A stretch of DNA of 64,000 nt from a virus. Below the pieces are notes generated by a model. The model did no database searches. It saw only the letters and a program-made list of their open reading frames with translations, and was not told where the DNA came from. Within the stretch, counting starts at the first letter, position 1, and every line of letters begins with the position of its first letter. Location of the stretch: the IMG/VR virus record IMGVR_UViG_3300019458_000021, positions 62,001-126,000 of that record; one strand, written 5' to 3'. The translations under genes and the position numbers were made by a program. Positions 19,816-62,488 of this stretch are shown piece by piece.

Positions 19816-22800
19816 CTAGTCATCAAATATACCAGCAACTTCCAACACACGAATACCGTGCAAAGCTACCCAGGAGGTCTTAAAGATCTCACGGTATTTA
19901 GATTTCACGGACAATGCATCTAGCAGACAGTTAAACCAAATGTTGTTGACGTGTTCTGTACCAAATGTGTTGTAGATTGCATCCATTGCTGTGGCAATAT
20001 TCTCAGACGTGTCAAACGAGAACGTTGCAAAGAACGAGTTGATGTCTAGTGGATAAAAGTCGTTGTTCGGATCCTCGAGATACGCAATGACCGTTTGCAG
20101 CGACAATGTACCATCGGTGAATGACTGATCAACACCAAGACCGTATTGTGTATCCGTGCCAGAAATCTCATCATACAGCGTGCGCTCCAACGCTGGGACA
20201 CGAACGCTTGGATCAGCGAGCTTGTAGCCAATCAACGATTCCGTTAGACGGTCCCACAGACGGCGGTCAATGTTAGCCCCCTGGCTGCGACGAATTGCAA
20301 GCCATTCTTCATGCTTGTTTTTGAGGTTCAACGGTGTCGGACCGTCATCAAGAGTGTCACGAAGTGTCAGATCCCGTGTAAATCGCACTTCATAGCGATC
20401 ATCCGTTCGAATAAAGTCCGCAGCCTTACGAATGATCGCTTGGCGATAGAACACTGGAATAACAGGGTATTGATCATAGATCCAAGGCGCTGAATAAATG
20501 ATGCCAAATGTGATACCGTATCCGAACCGGTCCGCCAAAGTTGGATCATCTTCTGGACGCTGTACAACAAGATATAGCGTTGGAATCTGTTCGATCTGTT
20601 GGGCAACTTGGATCAAAGGCAATGCATCATTACGATCCTCGATCTTGTTCAATCGATTTTCAACCCAAAAGTAGAACAATGAACGCGTAACGTTGTCAAT
20701 TGTTACAACACGTTGTGTGTATTCGGTCTGTTGCTTGAATTGCGTGTGTGTTGTTCCGTCATCTGTCGTATCTGGGTCAAACGTAATCTGTTCTTCTGTG
20801 AGAACAGGAATTGGACGTACGACCGTCACAATATCGTTGATTGTGAGAGAGGTTGAATTCGAGATCTCCAGCGAATTATCAACAACAAGACCTGTTTCCA
20901 CGACAACTCCGTTCACATACATGTTGACAACATCACCAGAAGCAAACAAGTCGCTGTCAAGCGTAAATGTCGCAGGAACCGGAAGTGTATACCCGTCAAT
21001 AATTGGAATGATTTTTTGCGACACAATCGGTTTACGCACCCAAGATGTTGCTTTGAATGCTGGAACAACTTCTAGTGTTCCAATGCCGGCCGTACCGTAT
21101 TCGAACGGCGTACCATTTTCCGTGTCGCTTAGTTTGGTAATTGTTGATGTTGTACCCAGTGTTGCAAAATACTTTGTTGAACCAGCAAGCGTTGTAGTTG
21201 TTGTTAATGGAAGTTGCAGGTCGAATGTTGTGATCACAATCGTGCTTTCCACAGCTTCAACTGTTGTTGGTACACCTGTGAGAGCAGTTTGCATCAAAGC
21301 TGCAAGCTGTGTAACTGTCGTTGATGCAGAAGTAATTGTGATCGTGTAGTCGATTGCCGCTCCACCATTCACAGCGAGGGTAAAGTCATAGCTGCCAATA
21401 GCCAAATTTGTCAACGTTGTTGGTACTACTGCCGGTGTATCATAGAAAGTAACCGTTGCAATGGCTGGTGATGTTTCAAACACCGCTGGAACGACCGTAA
21501 TCGTTACAACCGCTGTCATCGAAGTTGCTAAACTGTCAAACAAGTCTGGATTAGCACCCGTTGTCGGACGAGTTGGTGTAATTGTTCCATTAACGACTAA
21601 CACTACTTCATCGCCTATGCTCAACGTGTTCACGCCAGCAATTTCATCGGTGCCGACGTTCACAGTCGCTGAAATTGGTGTACGTTCACGGAAGAAAGTT
21701 GTCATTCGTGGGGTACCAGTGATCTTGTCGTTTGACGCAATTGCTGTGTCATTGGTCTCATCAACAGCTGTTGCAGCCCATTCCTCAGGTGTGAATTGGC
21801 TTTCAACCCATTGATACACACGAACGTCGCCCCAATCCGCCAAACGACCCCAGTTGTAGAGGCGGTCGTTGAGATCCGGTAGGACAACATCGTCATAGTA
21901 CGGACGATATGCAAGCGTTGCTGTATCAAGCCACACTGTTTGTGTTTCAGCCTGATTCCATGGCTGTTGTGAGATGTCATTTGGATTCAACGTATTCGTA
22001 TACAGAGCTGGATCGACAGCATTTTGAATGTCAACATTATGAACGGCTGTGGGTGAGTGATATCCTCGAGCTGGATCCCACATCGGAACATTGGTCAGCA
22101 CCGTTCCGGCAACGTAATCGATGATCTTCGCAGGACTATTCTTTGTCTTACCTGGGTTGATCGTGAAGATCATGATAATGTCAGTGAAACCAGTCGTTGT
22201 AAACCGGATCACTTCCGAATTGATTCTTGAGAACTCATCTGCACCTGTGCCTTCAATCATATACGCTGTTGTATAGTTGCGTAAATCACCAGCAACAACA
22301 AGATCACGGTTGGTTACACGAACTGTGTCTGCAAAAGTTGGCAGCTGTATGTAGATATCACCGGCAACAGTTGTAATTTTGACTGGTACGTCAGTTGTCT
22401 GAACCCATTGTGTTCCATCCCAAATGAAGATGAAGCCAGTCGACTTTTCATACCACATGTCAACCGTTTCTTCGCCAGCTGTTGGAACAACATCAGAAGC
22501 ATAGATTGTTGTGAGAGTTGTCACCTGACTGTCTAAAAACAGGATTGAATTATCGAGCAACACCCGTTGCTCGGGCGCATCAATCCAACGGTCTTGATTG
22601 CTAAATGTTACAATCTTGAATCCCATTGCCTCATCAGCCTCAACCTGTGCCGTGTCTGATGCTTCTGTATCTGTCAAAAACTCGAGACGAACGTCATCGA
22701 CTTGGCCATCAGACGCAAACAATTTGATTTCTGGATACACACGCGGACGAACATCTCCAAATTGAGCAATCTTCCAAGCCCAAAACTCGTCGATTTTTGC

Positions 22801-25800
22801 GTCAACAAATCGACGAGAGTTGATGTACGCCTTGATTGCATTTGTTGATCCTTTTGCTTGGATCATACCGCGGTAGAAGACAAACTGTGTTTTTGCATTT
22901 GTGTTCAACAGATCCAAATATGGCTGTGAACCGGCACGGTAACCAAGCAATTGACGAGAGTTGAGACCAACCTTCGTAAGTTCCTTCAGCCCGTATGTGT
23001 CATAGTAGTTCTGCGAATCGACGGTCTGGCCTTCAATGTTGCGACGGTATTTGCCGCCGAGCAAGTAATATCCACCTAATGTTGGACGAAGTGAAAAATC
23101 GTTCTTTTCGTAGAAGTCCATGCCAAATCGCTGTGCTGTTAATCCGAGGAATGAATCGTACAGAATTTGATTGCTTGTTGTGTAATCGTTGAACAAACAA
23201 ATGTGCTCGTATCCTTCGATAAACAAGTGCGCTCCACCCATGTGAATATAGTTGTATGGGTCAGCGGTAGAGATTGATGGTGGAACAGTGTCGTTAGGAA
23301 GTTCTGTTCGCATTGCAAGACGGCTCTGTTTGTCTTCACGGAACACCAACAACTTATCAGCACTGATTGGCCGTGCATACTGGTCAAAGATCGTTTGCTG
23401 AACACGAATGTCTGCATACGGTCCTTGAACAACGTCCGAAAGAACACCTTGAGGCGTGTCAATCCACACATTGTTCCGAGCCGCATTCAACTCAAACGAT
23501 GGGAATGAAATCGGACGGCTTTGTGGAGCAATAAACATCACCCCACTGCCGTTTGTGAGAACGTCAACGATGCTTGCGTTCAACATGCGTGTGGTTGATA
23601 ACCTGAACTCACCTGACACGCCGGTCGGATTATAGTAGTATGGTGTGTTCGCGATGAACGGTTCTGGCAGAAGACCTGTTGATGACATTAAGATAGCAGT
23701 TCCTGGTTGCCACATTGGCACCTGACCTGAGAACGTCATGGTATTTGCGGCCAAGTCTGTCACAGTGAATTGATATTTGTCAGCAACGCTCATGCGTGTA
23801 CGACGTAGTCGGAACGCCCAATCGATGAATCGTTCTTCTTCAAGCTGCCAGTTAACTGTGCGTCCTGTTTCCGGATCCAGCTCTGTGAAGTCGCTCAAAT
23901 TGTACAAGACGCCAATGTCTTTCTGGTAGGCTGCGTAGCCGTCGATGATGTTAATCAGTCGCTGAATACCAGCGATCGAGTAAGGAGGAATAAACGTTCG
24001 AACCTTTGTCTTGTCCAGTGCATAGTGATACCAGATTTCTGTTGAAGGGCCCGCACCTCCAAACACTTGGAATGATGAATCGACTTGACCAACATTAAGA
24101 TCTCCTGTACCAGTTGTTGTCCACACAAAAGGAACACCAGCCAGCGCTGCATTTGGACTTTCTGCAACTCGGAACTGTCGATTGTTCAGTCGGATAATGT
24201 ACAATGGTTGATTCGGAACCAACGGAGCTGGTAACAATTTTGATGAAGTTACGAACACAAGATCGCCAGTTTGCCACGGTAGAACACTTAACGGAAAGTC
24301 AATCAAACCATTTGCGATTGAACTTGGTAGTGGTTCAAGTGTTGTGATTCTTGTCCTGTCAACCGATGGATCGTAAATCGAAGCAACAACGGTATAGGAA
24401 CCATCATTTCCTGTTGAGTTGATAACGTCAAATTCTTGATCCGGAGGAAAATCTGTCACATGATCACCATCAACCTCAAGCAGATTCGATACAGACAGTG
24501 CACCTGTAATTGTATAGCGGAAAATCGTTGCAGTGTTCGTAAGAATATCAACCGTGAACGGATAGTTGATCACGTCATAGTAGGAAACGTCGCGAGGAAT
24601 TGACGCAAGCGTTTCGATTTCAAGTTTCCACTGAGTTTGACTGTTGTACTGAACAAGTTGTGGTGGCATATTCAAGACAACGACTTCAAACGCATCTGAC
24701 CACATGTCTTTGATCACACCCATATTTGCGAGCAATACGTTGTAGTCTTGTGGACCAACATCAAAGTACTTGTTCGAAACTTCGAGAGTTGATGTGTCAA
24801 TAATGCCGGAGAATTGATAGGACAATAATGGATCCCAAGCTGTCCACAAAATACGGAATTCTTTGTTCGTGTCGTAGCCAACGAATCGGTCATAGTTCAC
24901 ATACCACTGGTTCAATCCTCGTGCTAGGAATGAGACGTCATTGTTGTAAATGTCGCCGTGGAACAGTGCGTCTTCGTGGTTGTACACCTGACAGAATGTT
25001 GGATCGATCTGAAGGTTGTTGACACGTATAAAATCAATGCCCCACGCATAGTGCATGAAGCGAACAGGTTGCATTCGAAATGCAATCACTAGTGGATCGT
25101 AAACATGCTCACCGGAAACCAACCACTGCCATTCTACAGGACCGCCGTCTCCAAACGCATAGTTCGCTCCAGGGGCAACAATCTCAGTCGACAAACTTGT
25201 GAAGAACGAGCGAACAATTGATGAAACGGTAGTGTAATACGGTGGCAACAGATCATCCGGTGCATAGTTGCCTTGAATTACACCGTCACTGATGTTGACG
25301 GAGAAATAGTTGTACACCAGCGTCACTTGGCCTGGTAGACCAGTTCCCGGCGAACCATCCGGAGCAGTACCACCCACAGGAATGGTACCAACACGAATAT
25401 TCTCCCACATACCAGTTGTTGTGCCGTGGTTGTAAATCCATCGACGGGTGCCGTTGGTTTCAAGGTAGAACGCATCCCACCAGTCAGGTTTGTCCGCAAA
25501 TCCCTGGAGTTTCCATGGCTCGAGATGTGGGTAAGGTGTATTGTACCATAGCGTGTAAAGCTGTTGCCAAGACCCTGCCAACCCAGGCGAAATCGAGAAC
25601 GTTGGTGGTGTAGTCAAGTTGCTATACACATAGTTCCATGTGAACGCATCTGACGGATTATACAACACATTTTCGAACGGTGCACGAATACGGCGAGCGG
25701 CGACAAATGCAAAGAATTGGTCTTCGGTATATTCATCGAAGAATGCTTGTTCACTTACATCGGGAGTTAACGATGAGTAATCGAATGCCGTTTCAGCGAA

Positions 25801-28707
25801 GTCAGGCGTAACAGCATGCAATTGTTCTTCGATTGAAAGGATTGTGTTTGCCAATAGCGCGCGCATATCAACTTGTTGCCATGCAATTGAGATCTCGCCA
25901 GCAGGTGCTGCAGCAACCCAAGAAACACCGTTCCATTCAAACAGTTGGTTAAATGTGGTGTTCCAGTACAAGGCACCAATTGGAACGCCAGCCGATGATG
26001 GCGCAACGGGCGAAACAGCAATCACGTTGAAGCGATACAAAACACGAGGCGCAATAGTCTGATACCAGTAAACACCGTTTCGAATCACACCAAACTCTGC
26101 AACGAACGTTGTTAGTGGGCAGCCAGGTGGTAATATGAACGGAAGCGTTGACATGAAACATGGTGGCGCTGTCGTAGAAATCTTTCCAAGAGTACCGTTT
26201 GTTACTCGCGTGTCCGGTAAACTACACAAAATACGTGCGATGCTATCTTCTTCGGCGGCTGTGAAATCAATACCCGAACGATGACCGTCGTGATGTAGAA
26301 TTTGATAGATGTTCAACTTCGAATCGATGTCTACAATCGGTTTTGTCTTTGGTCCGAGTGCAAACATTGGAACTGTTGCAACCCAATGACGTACACCAAT
26401 ATCGGTTACATTGTCGAACGCACTTGTATCAACATACACTTGGCCGTAGAAGTCGTTCGCTTCATAAGCGTCTTGAATCGTTTCGTTGATGAATCCTTGC
26501 AAGTCTGTGATTGTTTCCGTGTTGATTGTTGACAACATTGTCAACACGTTCTTCGTGTATAGTTCTTTAATCGCTAACAACAATGATGCATACTGTTGTT
26601 GTGCAAAATCAATGATGCCCAACGGGGTCACAACAGTCTCATTTACTGCAGAAATCAGAGTATCATAACTATCATTGTGCTCCTTGATCGTACCACCCAA
26701 CGAATAGTTGAACGACCCCTGCGTCAAAGCAGAAACTGTTCCGCCTGGGAATGCAAATGGATTTGGTTGTTCAGCAATGATTGATCGGAAATGTGAGACA
26801 AGCTCTGAGTAGGCAACAACCGCGCGGTTGTGATGCTCCGGATTGAATCGCCACTGATCAGGTATTTCCCAGTCACCAGTAGGATCGCCAACAGGCAGAG
26901 GATTTCGATTGCCGTCGACCCATTCGGGAATGTAAACACCACCAGTCCAATCGCTAGGTGGACCAGAAGTTCCGTTTGTGTATTGCGGGACGCTACGCCA
27001 AATCGTCGTCAGTGTTGGATCAGCTCCTTCGATACAAACAACCGGTGTTAGAAGGGAATCGTCCTGTTTCGGCTGAGCTTCTGTTGACCATGTGGTGCCA
27101 TTAGATCGGAAGACAATCTGCTGTTCGGGATCATAGTAAATGCTGTTAACAATTGTGACAAGATATGCAGGAGGATCTGTGCCAACAAACGGTGCATGCG
27201 TTTCAAAGCGATCGTTCGCATCTTGAATGACAAACAACGATTGCCATGCGTCACCATCCCATTGTTTTAGGACTTGTGTGCTGGTGTTATACCAGTAATC
27301 ACCCGACTGCACACGACCATCATGCAGGCGATAGCCGTAGATCTGACCATTATCTTCTGCAAGTAGGAACTGTTCGAATCCAAACTCCCGGCCACCATCT
27401 GAAACTGTAATACGCTTCTGAACAGAACGATTGATTGGCGCCGATGGATCTTCTTGGAAAGAAAAAATTGGCGATGCTTTGATGATTTCTCCCGTGCAGA
27501 CATTGTACACGTTGAACAACGGATACTGATTGATCAATATCTTGGCTTGTTCGTTTCGTTTGTATGTTTCACGTGCAAGATATTCTGGTTGAGTACCAGC
27601 AATCACAGCTGCAAGGAATGTCACTTCATCTTCAATTGTACGAACAGGAACATACTGTAGACCCATGTCACTCAACGAAGCCGGACCAACTTCAATGCGA
27701 ACAATGTCATATTGTGTCAGTGGTGTTGTAAAAATGATCTGCGTTACATAACCGAACGTTTGAGAAGTGTAGATGCTTGTACCGACTACCGTATAGTCCG
27801 GAGTACCGACAGTTGTTGTTTCTACATACTGACCATACTGACGAACATCGTTAACATATACACGAAGTTGGTCTTGTCCGGCAAGCGCAAACAGGGAACG
27901 GCCAGTCGTAATTGTACCAGAAGCGTTTGCTGCAGCAGGAATTGTTTCGTTGACGACAATGTTTGTATTCAGACCAACGTTTGTTGCCGACAATACTGTG
28001 TAGATGCCGTCGCCACCGCCCGTGTTGTCTGGAATGACAAACGACATGTTTGGGAAAAAGAATGATGCAAAATTGCCTGTAATTTGCCATGTTCCGTTAA
28101 CACCCACGATCACACCATTGATCGTAAATGCTGTCTCATTGATGAATTGGAATGAGGCATCGAGAGGGATAGTCGTTACGCCAACGCCCGTGACTGTTGT
28201 CTCTTGGAAATACTGGCCAACAGTCATTGGACCAATAGCTGGATTGCCGAAGAATGAGTATGGATCGCCGTCTTCTATCGCACGACGGAGCAGCGGGTTA
28301 CCGACAATCGATCCTTCCGCAGTAGTCACTTGTGATGCGGTGTTCATAACCCAATGAACATGATAGCCGCGCCAGGTGTCGCCAAGACTTGTCAAGCTCG
28401 GTTCAAGTCGTAAGTGTGTTGGACCACCACCGGTTGGGTACGTTGCAAAAAATACATCAACAGCTGGACCAGCCTCAATCAGTTTCACAATTGTTACCAT
28501 ATAGCGGCCTTGGACATCCGCTGGATCAGTTGGACCTCCTTCACGGTAAATTGAGTAGTCGACGGTGAATGTATTGTTCGTCACCGGCAGATCAGACTTC
28601 ACTAAAAAGTGAAAACCCGGAACAAATGTGTCTGTATAGTTTGTGTCACGCGCCTCAGTTTCTGACTTGTCAAACAAGTACAAGAACCATTCTGTGCCTG
28701 CCCCACC
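19816..28707 (-). CDS. giant baseplate wedge-type protein, gp7 position (main part)
   Basis: 2963 residues in the second frame of an interrupted gene. It has no credible start of its own: the 5' end of its open frame is a TTG at 28893 without a ribosome binding site, inside the coding sequence of the upstream segment. Joined to 28709-30427 it would give about 3536 residues, versus 1032 for T4 gp7. It holds NTG/YTV modules, YW-motif units (YYWNTSTQVLKQWDGDAW-like, LYWNTTFNQLFEWNGVSW, MWYEKSTGFIFIWDGTQW) and a long C-terminal conserved part. Placed directly downstream of gp6, it probably forms a baseplate wedge arm or peripheral structure. Confidence 0.8.
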   Translation of the reverse strand, partial: GGAGTEWFLYLFDKSETEARDTNYTDTFVPGFHFLVKSDLPVTNNTFTVDYSIYREGGPTDPADVQGRYMVTIVKLIEAGPAVDVFFATYPTGGGPTHLRLEPSLTSLGDTWRGYHVHWVMNTASQVTTAEGSIVGNPLLRRAIEDGDPYSFFGNPAIGPMTVGQYFQETTVTGVGVTTIPLDASFQFINETAFTINGVIVGVNGTWQITGNFASFFFPNMSFVIPDNTGGGDGIYTVLSATNVGLNTNIVVNETIPAAANASGTITTGRSLFALAGQDQLRVYVNDVRQYGQYVETTTVGTPDYTVVGTSIYTSQTFGYVTQIIFTTPLTQYDIVRIEVGPASLSDMGLQYVPVRTIEDEVTFLAAVIAGTQPEYLARETYKRNEQAKILINQYPLFNVYNVCTGEIIKASPIFSFQEDPSAPINRSVQKRITVSDGGREFGFEQFLLAEDNGQIYGYRLHDGRVQSGDYWYNTSTQVLKQWDGDAWQSLFVIQDANDRFETHAPFVGTDPPAYLVTIVNSIYYDPEQQIVFRSNGTTWSTEAQPKQDDSLLTPVVCIEGADPTLTTIWRSVPQYTNGTSGPPSDWTGGVYIPEWVDGNRNPLPVGDPTGDWEIPDQWRFNPEHHNRAVVAYSELVSHFRSIIAEQPNPFAFPGGTVSALTQGSFNYSLGGTIKEHNDSYDTLISAVNETVVTPLGIIDFAQQQYASLLLAIKELYTKNVLTMLSTINTETITDLQGFINETIQDAYEANDFYGQVYVDTSAFDNVTDIGVRHWVATVPMFALGPKTKPIVDIDSKLNIYQILHHDGHRSGIDFTAAEEDSIARILCSLPDTRVTNGTLGKISTTAPPCFMSTLPFILPPGCPLTTFVAEFGVIRNGVYWYQTIAPRVLYRFNVIAVSPVAPSSAGVPIGALYWNTTFNQLFEWNGVSWVAAAPAGEISIAWQQVDMRALLANTILSIEEQLHAVTPDFAETAFDYSSLTPDVSEQAFFDEYTEDQFFAFVAARRIRAPFENVLYNPSDAFTWNYVYSNLTTPPTFSISPGLAGSWQQLYTLWYNTPYPHLEPWKLQGFADKPDWWDAFYLETNGTRRWIYNHGTTTGMWENIRVGTIPVGGTAPDGSPGTGLPGQVTLVYNYFSVNISDGVIQGNYAPDDLLPPYYTTVSSIVRSFFTSLSTEIVAPGANYAFGDGGPVEWQWLVSGEHVYDPLVIAFRMQPVRFMHYAWGIDFIRVNNLQIDPTFCQVYNHEDALFHGDIYNNDVSFLARGLNQWYVNYDRFVGYDTNKEFRILWTAWDPLLSYQFSGIIDTSTLEVSNKYFDVGPQDYNVLLANMGVIKDMWSDAFEVVVLNMPPQLVQYNSQTQWKLEIETLASIPRDVSYYDVINYPFTVDILTNTATIFRYTITGALSVSNLLEVDGDHVTDFPPDQEFDVINSTGNDGSYTVVASIYDPSVDRTRITTLEPLPSSIANGLIDFPLSVLPWQTGDLVFVTSSKLLPAPLVPNQPLYIIRLNNRQFRVAESPNAALAGVPFVWTTTGTGDLNVGQVDSSFQVFGGAGPSTEIWYHYALDKTKVRTFIPPYSIAGIQRLINIIDGYAAYQKDIGVLYNLSDFTELDPETGRTVNWQLEEERFIDWAFRLRRTRMSVADKYQFTVTDLAANTMTFSGQVPMWQPGTAILMSSTGLLPEPFIANTPYYYNPTGVSGEFRLSTTRMLNASIVDVLTNGSGVMFIAPQSRPISFPSFELNAARNNVWIDTPQGVLSDVVQGPYADIRVQQTIFDQYARPISADKLLVFREDKQSRLAMRTELPNDTVPPSISTADPYNYIHMGGAHLFIEGYEHICLFNDYTTSNQILYDSFLGLTAQRFGMDFYEKNDFSLRPTLGGYYLLGGKYRRNIEGQTVDSQNYYDTYGLKELTKVGLNSRQLLGYRAGSQPYLDLLNTNAKTQFVFYRGMIQAKGSTNAIKAYINSRRFVDAKIDEFWAWKIAQFGDVRPRVYPEIKLFASDGQVDDVRLEFLTDTEASDTAQVEADEAMGFKIVTFSNQDRWIDAPEQRVLLDNSILFLDSQVTTLTTIYASDVVPTAGEETVDMWYEKSTGFIFIWDGTQWVQTTDVPVKITTVAGDIYIQLPTFADTVRVTNRDLVVAGDLRNYTTAYMIEGTGADEFSRINSEVIRFTTTGFTDIIMIFTINPGKTKNSPAKIIDYVAGTVLTNVPMWDPARGYHSPTAVHNVDIQNAVDPALYTNTLNPNDISQQPWNQAETQTVWLDTATLAYRPYYDDVVLPDLNDRLYNWGRLADWGDVRVYQWVESQFTPEEWAATAVDETNDTAIASNDKITGTPRMTTFFRERTPISATVNVGTDEIAGVNTLSIGDEVVLVVNGTITPTRPTTGANPDLFDSLATSMTAVVTITVVPAVFETSPAIATVTFYDTPAVVPTTLTNLAIGSYDFTLAVNGGAAIDYTITITSASTTVTQLAALMQTALTGVPTTVEAVESTIVITTFDLQLPLTTTTTLAGSTKYFATLGTTSTITKLSDTENGTPFEYGTAGIGTLEVVPAFKATSWVRKPIVSQKIIPIIDGYTLPVPATFTLDSDLFASGDVVNMYVNGVVVETGLVVDNSLEISNSTSLTINDIVTVVRPIPVLTEEQITFDPDTTDDGTTHTQFKQQTEYTQRVVTIDNVTRSLFYFWVENRLNKIEDRNDALPLIQVAQQIEQIPTLYLVVQRPEDDPTLADRFGYGITFGIIYSAPWIYDQYPVIPVFYRQAIIRKAADFIRTDDRYEVRFTRDLTLRDTLDDGPTPLNLKNKHEEWLAIRRSQGANIDRRLWDRLTESLIGYKLADPSVRVPALERTLYDEISGTDTQYGLGVDQSFTDGTLSLQTVIAYLEDPNNDFYPLDINSFFATFSFDTSENIATAMDAIYNTFGTEHVNNIWFNCLLDALSVKSKYREIFKTSWVALHGIRVLEVAGIFDD

Positions 28708-30427
28708 CCTGGTCAGCAATCCAGCCTTTGACTGGCTCAAGTTCAAGTCGTGTTGGCTGGCTAGTTGTTGCTGAAAACACACCACTTGTTGTTGGACGAT
28801 ACTTCCAACTATATGTGACCTTTGTCCATTCGTTGAGTTCCGTTCGGGAATCGTACTCGAGAATTGGAATTTGAGCACGCCGGACACCGGCAAATGATTG
28901 CACTTGTGACTTGTGAATCCAACGGTTTTGTTGAGTCCACTGATTGCCTTCTTGAAGGGCGTTAAAGCAACTCGTGGTTAGGTCCCATAGGACGTCCCCA
29001 AGCAACTTGTCTCCGATGAACGCCGTCCAATCCTGTACAACAGCGATCCAGGTAGTGTTAGCAGGATTACGCTGGAATAGTATGTCCTGAGTTGTATCCA
29101 ACCACAATGCCAACGCTGTTGGTGCACCATTAAAAGTGATCCAGTCAGCTTCTGTTGGCTGAGCATATGGACCAAGCAACGTATACCATGGCGGCAAAGT
29201 CTCTTGATTGTCATCCCACAACGCTAAGTCCCAACCATAATCGCCCGTACAGACGCAGTTCGTGTCTGCACGGATAATATTATGGAGCTCTGCGAGCGAC
29301 AAAATACCTGAAGCAATAGGTGTGCATGGCACCCAGTCCAAACCGTCCCAACAGAACACCTCATCTGTTGATGTGTTGACCCAATATCGACCAACGAGTG
29401 ATGGCGGTGGCTCTATAGAGCTACGAATGGCCATCGGTGATGCGTCCGGATCAAAACACACAGTTGTCTGTGATGGCACTGCATCCTCAGCACATGAACT
29501 TATGTCAATTGTGCATGTTCCATCACCAGTTGCTGTTAGCGGAATGTCTTCATTGACAAGAATTGTTGTTACACCAGCTGAAAAAGTTGTGCTTGAAACG
29601 GTGAATGTACCATTTGCACCTCCTGTATTGTCGCTAATTGTAAATGAAGCACCCACAGGAAGAACATCTCGGAAATCACCATCAATCATCCACAGGCGTG
29701 AGGTAGCGTTAACGTCGACAACAGGTGTTGTTCGTGTTGAAAGGCTGAACAACGAACTTGAAACTGTGAAGAAACGGTTCCGAATATTGATATCGTCCGT
29801 CCCTTTGATCCATACTTGGAAGCCTTCAATGAACAAACCATCGTACCGTCCGTCAATCACAACGCAATTGTTGACTACATCAATCTCGACTATTGGAAAG
29901 GTTTCGCCATACGTTTCAACCAGTGTATTGTATGCATTGAGGACGTTCTGCTGTTTGCGGCAACGGTCCTCAATCGTTAGATATTGTGGCTGGTCTGTGC
30001 GATCGTCTGGTGCCCAGTAGTAGTCGACGAAGTTGACCAACATATCGATATTAACAGGAGGAATCCAGTTGAATTGAATCGTGTTGCCCCACTTTTGCAT
30101 GCGGTCAAAGTCAACACCCATCAACGTTAACTGCTGTTGATAGTTCTTAAACGTCATTGCCGTTTCAACACTTCCAACCTTTGTGTAGATTGTCGGCGCA
30201 AGCTGGAACGCTTGCAGTTGCGGAGTTGGCTCCGGTAGTTGACGGTTTGTCAGTGATGATGGGTTCGGTTGTCCGACAAAGCCCGATAAATGTGTTGTGT
30301 CATCTTTGGTAAGATGTCGGTTGAACGACGTTTCAAATACGCTACGGTTTGTCTCCGAATGTAGAACTTCCGGAAGCAGTTCGAAGATGTTTGTGCGTGG
30401 CTGATTGTCGTGATCGCTTTTACTCAC
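28670..30427 (-). CDS. N-terminal segment of the giant gp7-position protein
   Basis: 585 residues from the GTG at 30427, preceded by AGAGGA; a TTG further upstream lies in the late promoter itself. Good-quality coding continues to about residue 573 (EPVKGWIADQG). It then becomes an unlikely Arg/Val tail, while the other frame takes over with GGAGTEWFLYLFDKSE. A YW-motif unit (RYWVNTSTDEVFCWDGLDW) and an NTG/YTV module (MIDGDF to NTGGANGTFTV) are present. It is best read as the first part of one gene broken at 28701-28709. Confidence 0.8.
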   Translation of the reverse strand: MSKSDHDNQPRTNIFELLPEVLHSETNRSVFETSFNRHLTKDDTTHLSGFVGQPNPSSLTNRQLPEPTPQLQAFQLAPTIYTKVGSVETAMTFKNYQQQLTLMGVDFDRMQKWGNTIQFNWIPPVNIDMLVNFVDYYWAPDDRTDQPQYLTIEDRCRKQQNVLNAYNTLVETYGETFPIVEIDVVNNCVVIDGRYDGLFIEGFQVWIKGTDDINIRNRFFTVSSSLFSLSTRTTPVVDVNATSRLWMIDGDFRDVLPVGASFTISDNTGGANGTFTVSSTTFSAGVTTILVNEDIPLTATGDGTCTIDISSCAEDAVPSQTTVCFDPDASPMAIRSSIEPPPSLVGRYWVNTSTDEVFCWDGLDWVPCTPIASGILSLAELHNIIRADTNCVCTGDYGWDLALWDDNQETLPPWYTLLGPYAQPTEADWITFNGAPTALALWLDTTQDILFQRNPANTTWIAVVQDWTAFIGDKLLGDVLWDLTTSCFNALQEGNQWTQQNRWIHKSQVQSFAGVRRAQIPILEYDSRTELNEWTKVTYSWKYRPTTSGVFSATTSQPTRLELEPVKGWIADQGWGRHRMVLVLV

Positions 30428-30453
30428 GTAGTATGTCCTCTGATTTGCTCCAG

Positions 30454-30459
30454 TATTTA
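30454..30459 (-). promoter_or_regulatory. late promoter motif for the gp7-position gene
   Basis: GATAAATAC on the minus strand, 27 bp before the GTG start. Confidence 0.65.
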
Positions 30460-30491
30460 TCAAGAGGAACCCTACTATTATTCCACTGATT

Positions 30492-52607: not shown

Positions 52608-53249
52608 ATGAACAAGAAAGAGATTGTGCTTCTTATTGAATCGCTTCTCCCTTCAGAAAGCAACATGGTTTGTGAAACATCCGCTGACGGTAAGTCTTAC
52701 TGGCTTAACGGCACAATGATGCAATCAAATATCAAAAACCGTAACGGTCGTGAATATCCGCTCACTGAGATTACCTCGGCCGTTGAATCTGCTATCAAAC
52801 AGATCAATGAATACGGTCTGATGGGAGAGCTAGACCACCCACAAACGCTTCAAATCAACCTTGATCGTGTTTCACATAAGATCACTGAAATGAAGATGGT
52901 GAATGGCAACGCAATCGGTAAGGCTCAACTACTTGATACACCAATGGGTAAAATTGCACAAGAGTTTGTCCGTGCAGGTCTCCGTCCAGGTTTTTCGAGT
53001 CGTGGTGCTGGTAATGTCAACGAAAGCGGCGGTGTATCAGGCTTCCAATTTGTCACAGTGGATATCGTGGCGCAGCCATCTGCCCCAGGAGCATATCCAG
53101 AAAGTGTGTATGAAAGCCTTGATCGCAGCAGAACGGGTCGTAATGTGTTAACTCTTGCTGAAGCAGTTCGAAATGATCCTCAAGCACAAAAATTCCTTAA
53201 GGACGAAGTGCTTAAGTTCCTTTCAAGTGTGAATTGGCGCAAAGGCTAA
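52608..53249 (+). CDS. 21: prohead core protease gp21
   Basis: 213 residues (T4 212). Herpes-type serine protease features: MGELDHP with His77, FSSRGAGN with Ser130/Ser131, and a strand FQFVTVDIVAQPSAPGA. It processes scaffold and capsid proteins at L/I-x-E|G/A/S-like sites, several of which are visible in gp22 and gp23 here. The ATG follows AAGGAC. Confidence 0.93.
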   Translation: MNKKEIVLLIESLLPSESNMVCETSADGKSYWLNGTMMQSNIKNRNGREYPLTEITSAVESAIKQINEYGLMGELDHPQTLQINLDRVSHKITEMKMVNGNAIGKAQLLDTPMGKIAQEFVRAGLRPGFSSRGAGNVNESGGVSGFQFVTVDIVAQPSAPGAYPESVYESLDRSRTGRNVLTLAEAVRNDPQAQKFLKDEVLKFLSSVNWRKG

Positions 53250-55809: not shown

Positions 55810-55835
55810 ACAGTGGATCTTCACGAAGCAGCTAT

Positions 55836-55867
55836 AAAAATCCCCGTTTTTCGCCGGGGATTTTTTT
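55836..55867 (+). terminator. intrinsic terminator after gp23
   Basis: Stem AAAAATCCCCG/CGGGGATTTTT with an 8-nt loop and a T tract, 27 bp after the gp23 end. It lies upstream of the HNH gene, so that gene's start was placed at 55942. Confidence 0.9.
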
Positions 55868-55908
55868 ATCAACTGGGAAACTCCGTGGATTACCCTTCCG
55901 ATATAGCG

Positions 55909-55914
55909 TATACT
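55909..55914 (+). promoter_or_regulatory. possible -10 element (TATACT) for the HNH gene
   Basis: TATACT 28 bp before the HNH ATG; the -35 region (TGGATT, 17-bp spacer) matches poorly. Confidence 0.35.
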
Positions 55915-55941
55915 CAGAAATCTATAGGGAGAAAACACCAG

Positions 55942-56805
55942 ATGCCATTAGCAGGAGAAATCGATAGAACATATTCCGAACGTCTAACGGCAATCGGAAT
56001 CGAACTTCAAGAGAGTTTCAAAGGAACCAAAATAACACATCGTATGAAGTGTGTCAAATGTCAACACAAGTGGTCAGCGACACCTCTATCGAAGATTCAA
56101 TCCAATAAAAAACGTAAAGGAAACGGTTGTCCCAACTGCAATCTCGATCGGCAAATAGCAGAAAAGAAAGAATTACGTGCCAAAAATATCAAACTTCTTG
56201 AAGACAGAGGACTTGAGATTCTATCTGATTGGGATGGTAAACGTGTAGCAGATAAACATGATACACCAATATTCGTAACCGTTCGAAACAAAGTTTGTGG
56301 TCACACGTTTACTTCAGTGGCGAAGAACCTTCTCTCAAGAGGCATAACATGTGCAGTTTGCGGGAAAGAGGAACGAACGAAGAATATCAATGCCTGGTCA
56401 AAAGCAAACTCAGAAAAGTGGCGAGAAACAGCCGACCTGTGGTTGCAGTATCGCTCGAAAGTAATGTCGCTCACCCGTCAGAATTACAAAGCCCATAAGC
56501 AAGAAATCAATCCAAACAATCTTCCAACAGGCAAAGCTGGCACAGAAGGTGCGTATCAACTTGATCACATCGTGCCGATTCGATACTGTTTCGAGCACTA
56601 TATCCCTGCGGAAACTTGTGCTGATTGGTCCAACCTCCAGATGTTACCTTGGCAAGAAAATCTCTCTTCAAAAGCACACCTAAAAGAAGGAATTCCACCA
56701 ATCTTCGCTAAATATCAGCTTCAGAGGGTCCTCAATAAATATTGGCATGGACCTGTCATTCAAAGAATACCTGAAAAGCAAGGAACAGCTCAGACAAGCA
56801 ATTGA
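55942..56805 (+). CDS. HNH endonuclease with zinc-ribbon domains (probable homing endonuclease)
   Basis: 287 residues from the ATG at 55942 (AGGGAGA upstream); longer frames would run through the gp23 terminator. Two Cys clusters, CVKCQHKW...CPNCN and VCGHTF...CAVCG, look like DNA-binding zinc ribbons. The C-terminal HNH core is YQLDHIVPIRYCFEHYIPAETCADWSNLQMLPWQENLSSKA. It lies directly downstream of the capsid gene, a common insertion place for homing endonucleases. Its end overlaps the next gene by 59 nt. Confidence 0.85.
   Translation: MPLAGEIDRTYSERLTAIGIELQESFKGTKITHRMKCVKCQHKWSATPLSKIQSNKKRKGNGCPNCNLDRQIAEKKELRAKNIKLLEDRGLEILSDWDGKRVADKHDTPIFVTVRNKVCGHTFTSVAKNLLSRGITCAVCGKEERTKNINAWSKANSEKWRETADLWLQYRSKVMSLTRQNYKAHKQEINPNNLPTGKAGTEGAYQLDHIVPIRYCFEHYIPAETCADWSNLQMLPWQENLSSKAHLKEGIPPIFAKYQLQRVLNKYWHGPVIQRIPEKQGTAQTSN
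56736..56741 (+). promoter_or_regulatory. TAAATA motif close to the gene at 56747
   Basis: AATAAATATT ends 5 bp before the ATG, too close for a normal leader; it could drive the gene at 57078 instead or be chance. Confidence 0.3.
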
Positions 56806-58945: not shown

Positions 58946-61900
58946 ATGAGTACTTTCGATATTAGCCACGACTCCCCTGGTTTGCTGCGCTTTGAAGCGC
59001 TCAACATGAGCCTTAAAGTCGAACGAACAAGTGAGACAACTGCTCGAATCAGCTGGAACATTCCAACTCCAGCAGCCGGCTGTACAGCTGATACCCAAGC
59101 ATATTGTGGTATTGTCATCACCGGCGACACAACAGCAATCAATGGAAGCAAGCTTCCAAAGAATGGTGTCGTGTACAATTCTGATCCAACAATGGACAAG
59201 AATTTATTTGCAGGTGACAAGATCGGAACATCGTTCGTTCTTGGCGCTTTCTATCAAGACAGAACAACAACATTTCTTGACGTGACAGGTCTGTTACCAA
59301 ACACACCGTTTTACGTTTCAGGATTCCCGGTTGATTGTGAGTACCGATACTTCTTTGAAGGCGTACATGGGTACTCGCTGGATTTCAAATCTGATGGAAC
59401 CGAACCAACACATGCAACACAAACAGTATTGCTTACAAAGCCAGACGGTACGGCAGGTGTTCTTCCAACAGATTACACAGGTTTGGTTCCAGGTGTAACG
59501 TACACGTTTACAGCTTCAGTTGGTGCAGGAAGCCTAGCGACACAACCACAAGTTCCTCTTCCGCCATCTGCGTGTGTGACAAAACCAACTGTGTACACAG
59601 TTACAATCAAAGGCGAAAATGCTCTTACATATCAAGATCTGATCGATGAGATCAATCGACAGTTCGGGATCTTGACAGGTTGCCCACAAAGTCCACAACC
59701 ACCAAACGCTGGTACGTATTTCTGGAATGTAGTAGCACAGAAACTGTACCTGTTTGACGGATTCCAGCTGATTGAACTCCCTGTGTACATTCAGCCAACG
59801 CCGCCAACGCTTGTTGCGATTGGCACATACTGGTACAACCCGGTTACGAAAATTCTCTATCAATGGGACGGCACACAATGGATCGTTCAGACGGTAATCG
59901 TCTATGCAACGGATCCAACACAACCGATCTGTGATCAATCAATCTGGTTTGACGGAACTGCCGTTCACTTGTGGAATGGAATTGCGTGGTGTGACACAAC
60001 TCTATACACATCGCCCGTCGATCCATCACAACAGAATCCAGCTCCGTGTGGAGCGTACTGGTATAAAGCATCAACAAAACAGATGTTCAAATGGAACGAC
60101 GCACTTGAGATCTGGATTGCCACACTCGTCATCAAAGCGACCCTTAATCCGAACGCCTTGCCAATTGGATTCTATTGGTTCAACTCTTCGAACAACACAT
60201 TGTATCAATGGAGCGGTGTTTCTTGGGTTGCTCAAGTAAACGTACGTATTCAAGAAACAACTCCGTTAATGCCTGGTCCTGGCACGTATTGGTACAATCC
60301 GCTGACAGAAGTCCTACAACAGTGGAATGGTGTTGCGTGGATTGTTTTGCCTGATGTAACAACGTTTGCAACTGATCCTCAGGACCGTAGTTCTTGTGAC
60401 TTATGGTGGGACCTAACTAACAACCTTCTCTATGTTTGGGATATTGTAAACGGTGTATGGAAAGAAGTAACGGTATTCTTTCAGCAAGAGGTTGATCCAA
60501 CAATTCCTCCTGACATAGTTGATGGATCGTATTGGCTGAACCCAACAACACTTGTAATCAACGTGTGGGTGAATGGCTGCTGGATAGAAACGCAGTACAT
60601 CTTTTTCCCGACTGATCCAACACAGATGGTCAATGGAACTGTGTGGTTCAATGGTACAGGTTGGTTCTACTGGGACGGCACGCAGTGGGTTCCATTTGTG
60701 CCGACAATCTCAGAAATCGATCCTTCGTTGATTGCAGCTGGAGCATACTGGTTCAACACCACAAACGATACGTTGAATTTGTGGAACGGTGCATTGTGGG
60801 TGAACCTGTTGTATGTAACAACACCTCCGACGCCTGTTAAGGGTGATTGCTGGTTCAATACGACAACTGGCAAGGTGATGGTTTGGGACGGTACGCAGTG
60901 GATTGATGGAACGCCTGTTGCTTCTGTTGAACTTGACTGTGACGGAAACTTACTGTTCACAGACACATCACACCTTGGCAGTGCATCGTACATTGCTGTT
61001 GACGGTCGTGTGTTGACGAATTCGTTGGTGTTTGGTTTCCCTGTGTGGGAGATTTCTTCAGCAGGTCCTGGAACGTTGTGGATGTCACTTGGAGCTCAAC
61101 CAACGTTCACAAATCCACAACCTGGCATGGACGGCATCTCCGGAGAACCAATGTATCGCCAACTCGGTATTGGCACCGATGGTTCGAGCGACGAGCGTTT
61201 GGCTCTTGCAACAGAAATTCGATTCCAGCTTGGTTATCCAGTTGTTGATGTTGAGTTGAGTAAGGAACAACTCGATTATTTCATCACGAAGGCCATTGAT
61301 GAACTCCGTCAGCGAGCTGGCATTGCATACCGTCGTGGTTTCTTCTTCATGCAAATCGCTCCAGAACATCAGCGATACATTCTGTCGAACACAGCAACTG
61401 GCTACAACAAGATTGTAAATCTCATGGGTGTTTATCGTCTGACATCAGCGTTCTTGAGTTCAGCACACGGTGCTGGAGTGTACGGACAGATTGTTCTTCA
61501 GCACTTGTATAATATGGGTACGTTTGATTTGTTGAGTTATCACATCATCTCCGAATACATCGAACTGATGGAGATTCTGTTTGCTGGTCGAATCACTTTC
61601 ACGTGGAATGAACAAAAACGTGAGCTTCACTTGCTTCACCGATTCCCATTTGCAGAACGTATGGTGCTGATTGAAGCAGCTGTAGAACGCACGGAACAAG
61701 ACCTGCTTTCTGACCGATTCACATTCCCGTGGATTCGTCGTTACGCTCTTGCGCAATCCCGTATTGCTCTAGCGGAAATTCGTGGTAAGTACAGCACCCT
61801 ACCTGGGGCAGGGGGTGGTGTAACACTCAACGCCTCCGATCTGCGCGCTGCCGGTGTAGAAGAAATCAATCTTTGCTTGCAGGATTTGGATAACTTTGTG

Positions 61901-61951
61901 ACAGACACGCCAGAGGAATTTGGCATGGCAGCATCGTTCATTTTGGGTTGA
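58946..61951 (+). CDS. 13: gp13-like neck protein fused to a long N-terminal repeat array
   Basis: 1001 residues (T4 gp13 is 309). The last ~260 residues (DERLALATEIRFQLGYPVVDVELSKEQLDYFI to TDTPEEFGMAASFILG, with FPWIRRYALAQSRIALAEIRGKY and LPGAGGGVTLNASDL) fit the T4-type neck protein family. Ahead of this is an FN3-like domain (about 20-130, SLKVERTSETTARISW). About ten units of a 35-45 residue repeat follow (about 255-655), each centred on YWYN....LYQWDGTQWV. The neck domain would sit between portal and tail; the array probably projects outside as decoration or whisker. Confidence 0.75.
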   Translation: MSTFDISHDSPGLLRFEALNMSLKVERTSETTARISWNIPTPAAGCTADTQAYCGIVITGDTTAINGSKLPKNGVVYNSDPTMDKNLFAGDKIGTSFVLGAFYQDRTTTFLDVTGLLPNTPFYVSGFPVDCEYRYFFEGVHGYSLDFKSDGTEPTHATQTVLLTKPDGTAGVLPTDYTGLVPGVTYTFTASVGAGSLATQPQVPLPPSACVTKPTVYTVTIKGENALTYQDLIDEINRQFGILTGCPQSPQPPNAGTYFWNVVAQKLYLFDGFQLIELPVYIQPTPPTLVAIGTYWYNPVTKILYQWDGTQWIVQTVIVYATDPTQPICDQSIWFDGTAVHLWNGIAWCDTTLYTSPVDPSQQNPAPCGAYWYKASTKQMFKWNDALEIWIATLVIKATLNPNALPIGFYWFNSSNNTLYQWSGVSWVAQVNVRIQETTPLMPGPGTYWYNPLTEVLQQWNGVAWIVLPDVTTFATDPQDRSSCDLWWDLTNNLLYVWDIVNGVWKEVTVFFQQEVDPTIPPDIVDGSYWLNPTTLVINVWVNGCWIETQYIFFPTDPTQMVNGTVWFNGTGWFYWDGTQWVPFVPTISEIDPSLIAAGAYWFNTTNDTLNLWNGALWVNLLYVTTPPTPVKGDCWFNTTTGKVMVWDGTQWIDGTPVASVELDCDGNLLFTDTSHLGSASYIAVDGRVLTNSLVFGFPVWEISSAGPGTLWMSLGAQPTFTNPQPGMDGISGEPMYRQLGIGTDGSSDERLALATEIRFQLGYPVVDVELSKEQLDYFITKAIDELRQRAGIAYRRGFFFMQIAPEHQRYILSNTATGYNKIVNLMGVYRLTSAFLSSAHGAGVYGQIVLQHLYNMGTFDLLSYHIISEYIELMEILFAGRITFTWNEQKRELHLLHRFPFAERMVLIEAAVERTEQDLLSDRFTFPWIRRYALAQSRIALAEIRGKYSTLPGAGGGVTLNASDLRAAGVEEINLCLQDLDNFVTDTPEEFGMAASFILG
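59700..60915 (+). repeat. tandem YW-motif repeat array in the neck protein gene
   Basis: About ten protein-level repeats, for example TYWYNPVTKILYQWDGTQWI, FYWFNSSNNTLYQWSGVSWV, TYWYNPLTEVLQQWNGVAWI and AYWFNTTNDTLNLWNGALWV. The spacing is 35-45 codons and the DNA is diverged between units. Confidence 0.85.
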
Positions 61952-61954
61952 CCT

Positions 61955-62488
61955 TTGAAACTCAACACTCAAACATTCATTGAACGAGCGCGCCAGGTTC
62001 ACGGCAATCGCTATGATTATAGCAAAGTCGAGTACAAGCGCAGCACTGAAAAAGTCAAGATCTTTTGTCCCTTACATGGTGCGTTTTTACAAGCTCCGGA
62101 GAATCACGTTAACCAGAAGCAGCATTGTCCGAAGTGTGCCAATCTTCGTAAAGGAAAGCATGAACGATATAGTTTTCAATGGATGCAACAACGTCCGGAA
62201 CGTGCTTATGCACCTGCCTTGTTGTATGTTGTCGACGCTGGCGCTTACATTGAACTGGGAATAAAAACGACAAGCGTAATGCCTATGAAACACAAGCTGT
62301 TACACTTGCTTTACCTGTCTCTCAAAGATGCGTATCTGCTCCAGGACAAAATTGAAAAAGCACTTGAGAGTCATCGCCACGAGACGTATGATATTTACGC
62401 TGAAAAATCAAAGCGTTGGAACAACAAAAAACATGTACTCGAAACTCTGCAGGAAATTTTACCGAAACCCGAGTACCCTTATAAATAA
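61955..62488 (+). CDS. DUF723-type protein with degenerate C-terminal domain
   Basis: 177 residues from a TTG at 61955 (MKLNTQTFIERARQVHGNRYDYSKVEYK). One DUF723 unit (HG.F.QAPENHVNQKQHCPKC) resembles the two units of the gene at 19064-19786. The C-terminal half (ALLYVVDAGAYIELGIKTTS) keeps the outline of a GIY-YIG start but lacks a clear catalytic Arg and later core. It may be a decayed homing endonuclease or a DNA-binding remnant. Inserted between two structural genes. Confidence 0.65.
   Translation: MKLNTQTFIERARQVHGNRYDYSKVEYKRSTEKVKIFCPLHGAFLQAPENHVNQKQHCPKCANLRKGKHERYSFQWMQQRPERAYAPALLYVVDAGAYIELGIKTTSVMPMKHKLLHLLYLSLKDAYLLQDKIEKALESHRHETYDIYAEKSKRWNNKKHVLETLQEILPKPEYPYK
62480..62487 (+). 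promoter_or_regulatory. late promoter, exact TATAAATA
   Basis: TATAAATAAG, identical to the T4 late consensus TATAAATA, 36 bp before the ATG at 62523. Confidence 0.75.

Follow-up and report, generated by a model that had tools for sequence, protein, structure and literature searches.

A gp13-type neck protein with an N-terminal array of eleven predicted beta-beads suggests a fused neck fibre or collar in a jumbo-phage clade

The extended neck gene lies in the window, the 64,000-nucleotide stretch of DNA that was analysed, which was taken from a virus record of 237,379 bases. It starts with ATG at the coordinates given in a preliminary description of the sequence, and its product matched phrog_211 with 625 bits over residues 216-994 (Table 1). 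Profile matches placed genes for the portal, a gp21-type prohead protease and a gp23-type major capsid protein upstream, and genes matching the tail sheath stabiliser, the sheath and the tube downstream. This setting among head, neck and tail genes is as expected for a neck gene. The region also holds an open reading frame resembling a homing or HNH endonuclease directly after the neck gene, which is absent at that place in phages XacN1 and RAS14, and an HNH-type endonuclease-like frame after the major capsid gene, in which zinc-finger-like CxxC motifs were recognised by eye. In a 595-residue protein encoded after the neck gene, a YTxTVxIDG...LMTELN motif recurs several times; by eye, it looks similar to residues ~215-243 of the neck protein.

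Table 1. Position of the features in the window, with the basis for each assignment.
Feature	Position	Strand	Basis
Whole gene, extended gp13-type head-tail adaptor, 1001 aa	58946..61951	+	phrog_211, relatives
FN3-like domain, residues 11-149	58976..59392	+	AlphaFold model; FN3 structures with Z up to 9.7; no Pfam match
Second small domain, residues ~150-250, strands plus helix 229-243	59393..59695	+	AlphaFold; present in relatives
Array of 11 YW units, residues 254-670, ~37 aa each	59705..60955	+	Unit profile; models with pLDDT 88-93
Beta-rich connector, residues ~671-744	60956..61177	+	AlphaFold secondary structure
gp13-type neck-ring domain, residues 745-1001, without the T4 fibritin-binding segment	61178..61948	+	Alignment, profile, fold
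gp21-type protease gene	52608..53249		Profile match
HNH-type endonuclease-like ORF after the major capsid gene	55813..56805	+	CxxC motifs, by eye
Homing or HNH endonuclease-like ORF after the neck gene	61955..62488	+	phrog_681, 1.2e-14
595-residue protein after the neck gene (L008:4524-6311)	62523 onward		Motif copies, by eye
3025-residue ORF with most of the scattered YW units	19816..28893	-	phrog_10938
Further ORF with scattered YW units	28670..30463	-	phrog_10938

The C-terminal domain is genuinely a head-tail adaptor of the T4 gp13 type. Residues 746-1001 (256 residues) aligned with 333 phage records, 321 of them covering 80% or more of the query, and many of these matches are annotated as neck protein or head-tail adaptor. 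A profile built from eight gp13-type domains picked up T4 gp13 (E 4.9e-19) and matched it at its two ends, and a Foldseek search with the full-length AlphaFold model returned T4 gp13 (9mkb) at E 5.7e-10. When T4 gp13 (9lu7) was compared by VIA-align, it gave a Z score of 13.4 over 115 residues with an rmsd of 4.0, and the fold is a helix bundle plus a swing domain. Thus, the gp13-like C-terminus of normal size proposed in the preliminary description was borne out, and the outcome that would have spoken against it, a C-terminus that does not align with gp13-type proteins, was not what we found. T4 gp13 itself matches phrog_211 only at positions 721-959 of 976, so this profile already includes extended members. 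Plain gp13 proteins of 250-266 aa, lacking an extension, are encoded by the jumbo phages PA5oct, Atu_ph07, SCTP-2 and RaK2.

About 744 residues precede the gp13 domain, in agreement with the roughly 740 first estimated, and they include two parts that had not been listed before, namely the second small domain and the beta-rich segment directly ahead of gp13. The whole protein was modelled with AlphaFold from 57 sequences, giving a mean pLDDT of 82.1. The FN3 structure 6hyf was superimposed on residues 2-146 of this model with a Z score of 9.7 over 96 residues and an rmsd of 2.7, and the FN3-like domain that had been suggested is, as modelled, real as a fold, though a scan of the whole neck protein against Pfam and NCBIfam gave no matches. 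The connector differs in length from relative to relative.

Between the second domain and gp13 lie 11 diverged YW units, starting near residues 254, 292, 330, 368, 407, 446, 483, 526, 562, 598 and 633. All 11 were found by a profile made only from the units of other phages, with 23-55 bits each, and in 1000 shuffles of the protein there were at most two matches over 2 bits and none over 14.4 bits. The tandem repeat described earlier was therefore confirmed, with the count corrected from about ten to eleven. When the array was modelled alone, AlphaFold gave a pLDDT of 93.5 and a pTM of only 0.65, which makes the model more reliable for the beads than for the overall shape. Most units were built from three or four short antiparallel strands, and the models thus portray each unit as a small antiparallel beta-bead.

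The bead domain has no Pfam or NCBIfam family model and no convincing solved relative in our searches. VIA-align of the whole array against solved structures was weak throughout and gave nothing above Z 2.8, with a dextransucrase as the best match, and no PDB match was convincing. Beta-propellers stood at the top of the PDB Foldseek list, but with a TM score of up to 0.12 and an rmsd above 20, and a propeller formed by the whole array is unlikely. In a library of viral protein models, the best matches to the array (E down to 2.5e-23) were an uncharacterized protein and collagen-like proteins of Orpheovirus, collagen-like proteins of other giant viruses, and phage tail fibres. Array-like stretches also occur in cyanophage tail fibres. 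Within this genome, large structural proteins assigned to phrog_10938 contain scattered single YW units, above all one frame of 3025 residues.

Full-length relatives with 35-38% identity were found in Xanthomonas phage XacN1 and Stenotrophomonas phages RAS14 and CM1. Their architecture is the same as here (ORF268 in XacN1), 11 units were counted in XacN1 and RAS14, and the protein is annotated in these two phages as hypothetical only. The extended protein was present in some 80 viral contigs, some of them near-copies, in addition to the three isolates, and an assembly artefact was thereby ruled out. Exactly 11 units were detected in 75 of the 85 rows examined, some of which are near-copies of one another. 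The other ten rows comprised three cut rows with fewer units, four with 9 or 10, and three with 12 or 15; for some of the 9- or 10-unit rows, doubled spacing in the sequence suggests a missed unit. The 15-unit lineage consists of L005, L082 and L087, the last with 12 units detected and a wide gap, and a further two rows (L136 and L141) have an insertion of ~115 residues within the array. The contig L087 had been binned as a Thaumarchaeota MAG yet encodes a phage neck protein, and it is probably a wrongly binned viral contig.

The order of the units is conserved as well. Of 781 units, 486 matched best the unit at the same position in the window's protein, against about 71 expected by chance, and across relatives the whole length of the extension is conserved. 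The fixed number of units and this positional orthology imply that the array is old and that its number has been held nearly constant. A recent repeat expansion was ruled out, as the units average only 35% identity within the protein and same-position matches are far above chance. In a tree of gp13 domains, the array-bearing members fell on one side of a branch with support 98/97, with the 15-unit pair nested inside, and by sequence they are a single clade. When only the gp13 domain served as the query, no complete array-free member was found; a few rows had a downstream start or ran into the contig end. The neck protein of RsoM2USA has been reported as 494 aa (PMC8504454) and may be an intermediate.

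In T4 gp13, residues 190-239 form domain III, which binds fibritin (PMC12270204). No counterpart of residues 190-236 was found here, where the alignment jumps from 189 to 237, and a similar gap appeared in a second alignment. By alignment, the fibritin-binding segment is also missing from the array-free gp13 proteins of RaK2, PA5oct and Atu_ph07, so the segment was lost either before the fusion or independently of it. Searches with Fibritin_C (PF07921) and phrog_1056 gave no match in the neck protein, in this genome, in XacN1 or in RAS14, while the T4 control was positive (E 2.3e-34 and 1.3e-207); these searches could miss a very diverged fibritin, and the record of ~237 kb may be incomplete. 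With PF07880, the control itself gave no match. In T4, the fibritin gene wac lies directly upstream (5') of gene 13.

Because the C-terminus is of gp13 type, the extension would sit on the neck-ring subunit. Its predicted fold is fibre-like, and the T4-type segment that holds fibritin is absent, so it is reasonable to infer that the array forms a neck fibre or collar fused to gp13. We therefore favour, as the best and a fairly probable reading, that the array is a self-carried neck fibre or collar of fixed length. The C-terminal gp13 domain would join the ring, which has 12 copies in T4, and the ring would dock on the portal after DNA packaging and then receive the tail. From the N-terminus of gp13 would extend the eleven beta-beads, with the second domain and FN3 at the far end, giving one appendage per neck subunit and up to twelve bead chains round the neck if the copy number follows the T4 gp13 dodecamer (PMC12270204). 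These chains might project as whiskers or pack as a collar, in either case presumably exposed on the surface, and the array may take over the place of fibritin, which in T4 is made separately and docks on the gp13 segment that has no counterpart in this protein. The fixed number of units argues for a set distance or packing, and the chain could span, for example, the distance from the neck to the capsid vertex, the sheath or the folded-back fibres, acting as a spacer, a fibre holder or a collar. There are observations that do not sit easily with the fused neck fibre. For XacN1, another carrier of this protein, microscopy reportedly showed no tail fibres, and the text of the paper mentions no neck fibres (PMC5852040). 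In addition, RaK2-like phages and PA5oct lack both the segment and the array, so the loss need not be tied to the fusion, and a very diverged fibritin could escape the searches.

The same fixed number, together with the conserved unit order, would also fit a defined packing in which the array is wrapped round the neck, the capsid vertex or the upper end of the sheath, forming a compact collar and making the head-tail joint stiffer. A non-protruding collar of this kind is known from phage Milano (PMC10491603), and some cysteines recur at set places, with C46, C349 and C484 invariant in the first 7 sequences. However, the pTM of the array model is modest and the neighbours of the array by fold are fibre proteins, and we regard the compact collar as rather unlikely. 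Far less credible is an extension that serves assembly alone, for example by spacing or chaperoning the docking of the neck, and that is cut off or hidden once the virion has matured. The phage does encode a gp21-type protease, but T4 gp13 joins after packaging, which is later than prohead proteolysis, and the extension is conserved at full length, like a structural part.

The preliminary description had taken the Trp/Tyr-rich repeats as a sign of carbohydrate binding, with the array acting as an adhesin for the host surface or mucus. The array is certainly aromatic, with 33 Trp and 20 Tyr in 419 residues, and similar beads occur in tail fibres and dispersed in the large structural proteins of the same genome. 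However, among 57 relatives with 32-78% identity, the first Trp, which belongs to YW, and the final one were kept in at least 90% of the sequences in most units, and the middle Trp was often replaced. A Trp pair that is near-invariant across distant phages would be easier to explain by a bead core than by host-specific sites for sugar. Nor is the array hypervariable, as it shares 77% identity with the nearest distinct relative, compared to 85% for gp13 and 76% for FN3; its copy number is fixed, and no carbohydrate-binding family was matched in Pfam or NCBIfam. In Anabaena phage A-1(L), a carbohydrate-binding module at the tip of the neck fibre did not bind the host (PMC10966104). An adhesin is thus improbable. 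What remains plausible of the earlier proposal is the neck-anchored, whisker- or collar-like array, given its gp13 anchor, fibre-like predicted fold and missing fibritin-docking segment, and what is not supported is the carbohydrate binding.

The presumed task of neck fibres in tailed phages is to hold the tail fibres or to sense conditions, and those of T4, XM1 and A-1(L) are separate proteins. The family to which the extended protein belongs was already known by sequence, as phrog_211 and as a hypothetical protein of XacN1, and no description of the array or its repeat motif was found in the literature searched. We tentatively propose that a jumbo-phage clade may have fused a fibre of eleven beads and fixed length to each neck-ring subunit, replacing the separate whisker of T4, that the bead may represent an undescribed domain family common to phage fibres and collagen-like fibre proteins of giant viruses, and that the invariant number may serve as a molecular ruler. 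If this were true, culturable phages such as XacN1 and RAS14 would carry a covalent neck fibre of constant bead number, and a single laboratory phage with one gene cut back would suffice to test the function of a neck appendage.

Compared to known systems, the C-terminal 256 residues match T4 gp13, the head-tail adaptor Ad2 (phrog_211), in family and fold, and the protein here differs in its ~744 extra N-terminal residues. The bead regions resemble, in predicted structure, those of the collagen-like fibre proteins of Orpheovirus and other giant viruses and of phage tail fibres, but architecture and location differ and these proteins have no known role in a neck ring. The neck fibres of A-1(L) are a bead-chain appendage like the one proposed here, but built from three separate proteins on a pentadecameric ring (PMC10966104), in contrast to the single fused protein of this phage. 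With the fibritin (wac) whiskers of T4, the array would share both place and role, as a fibre at the neck fused where wac sits. In contrast, T4 fibritin is a separate trimeric protein that docks on gp13, and the array is part of the neck protein and has no family match to fibritin.
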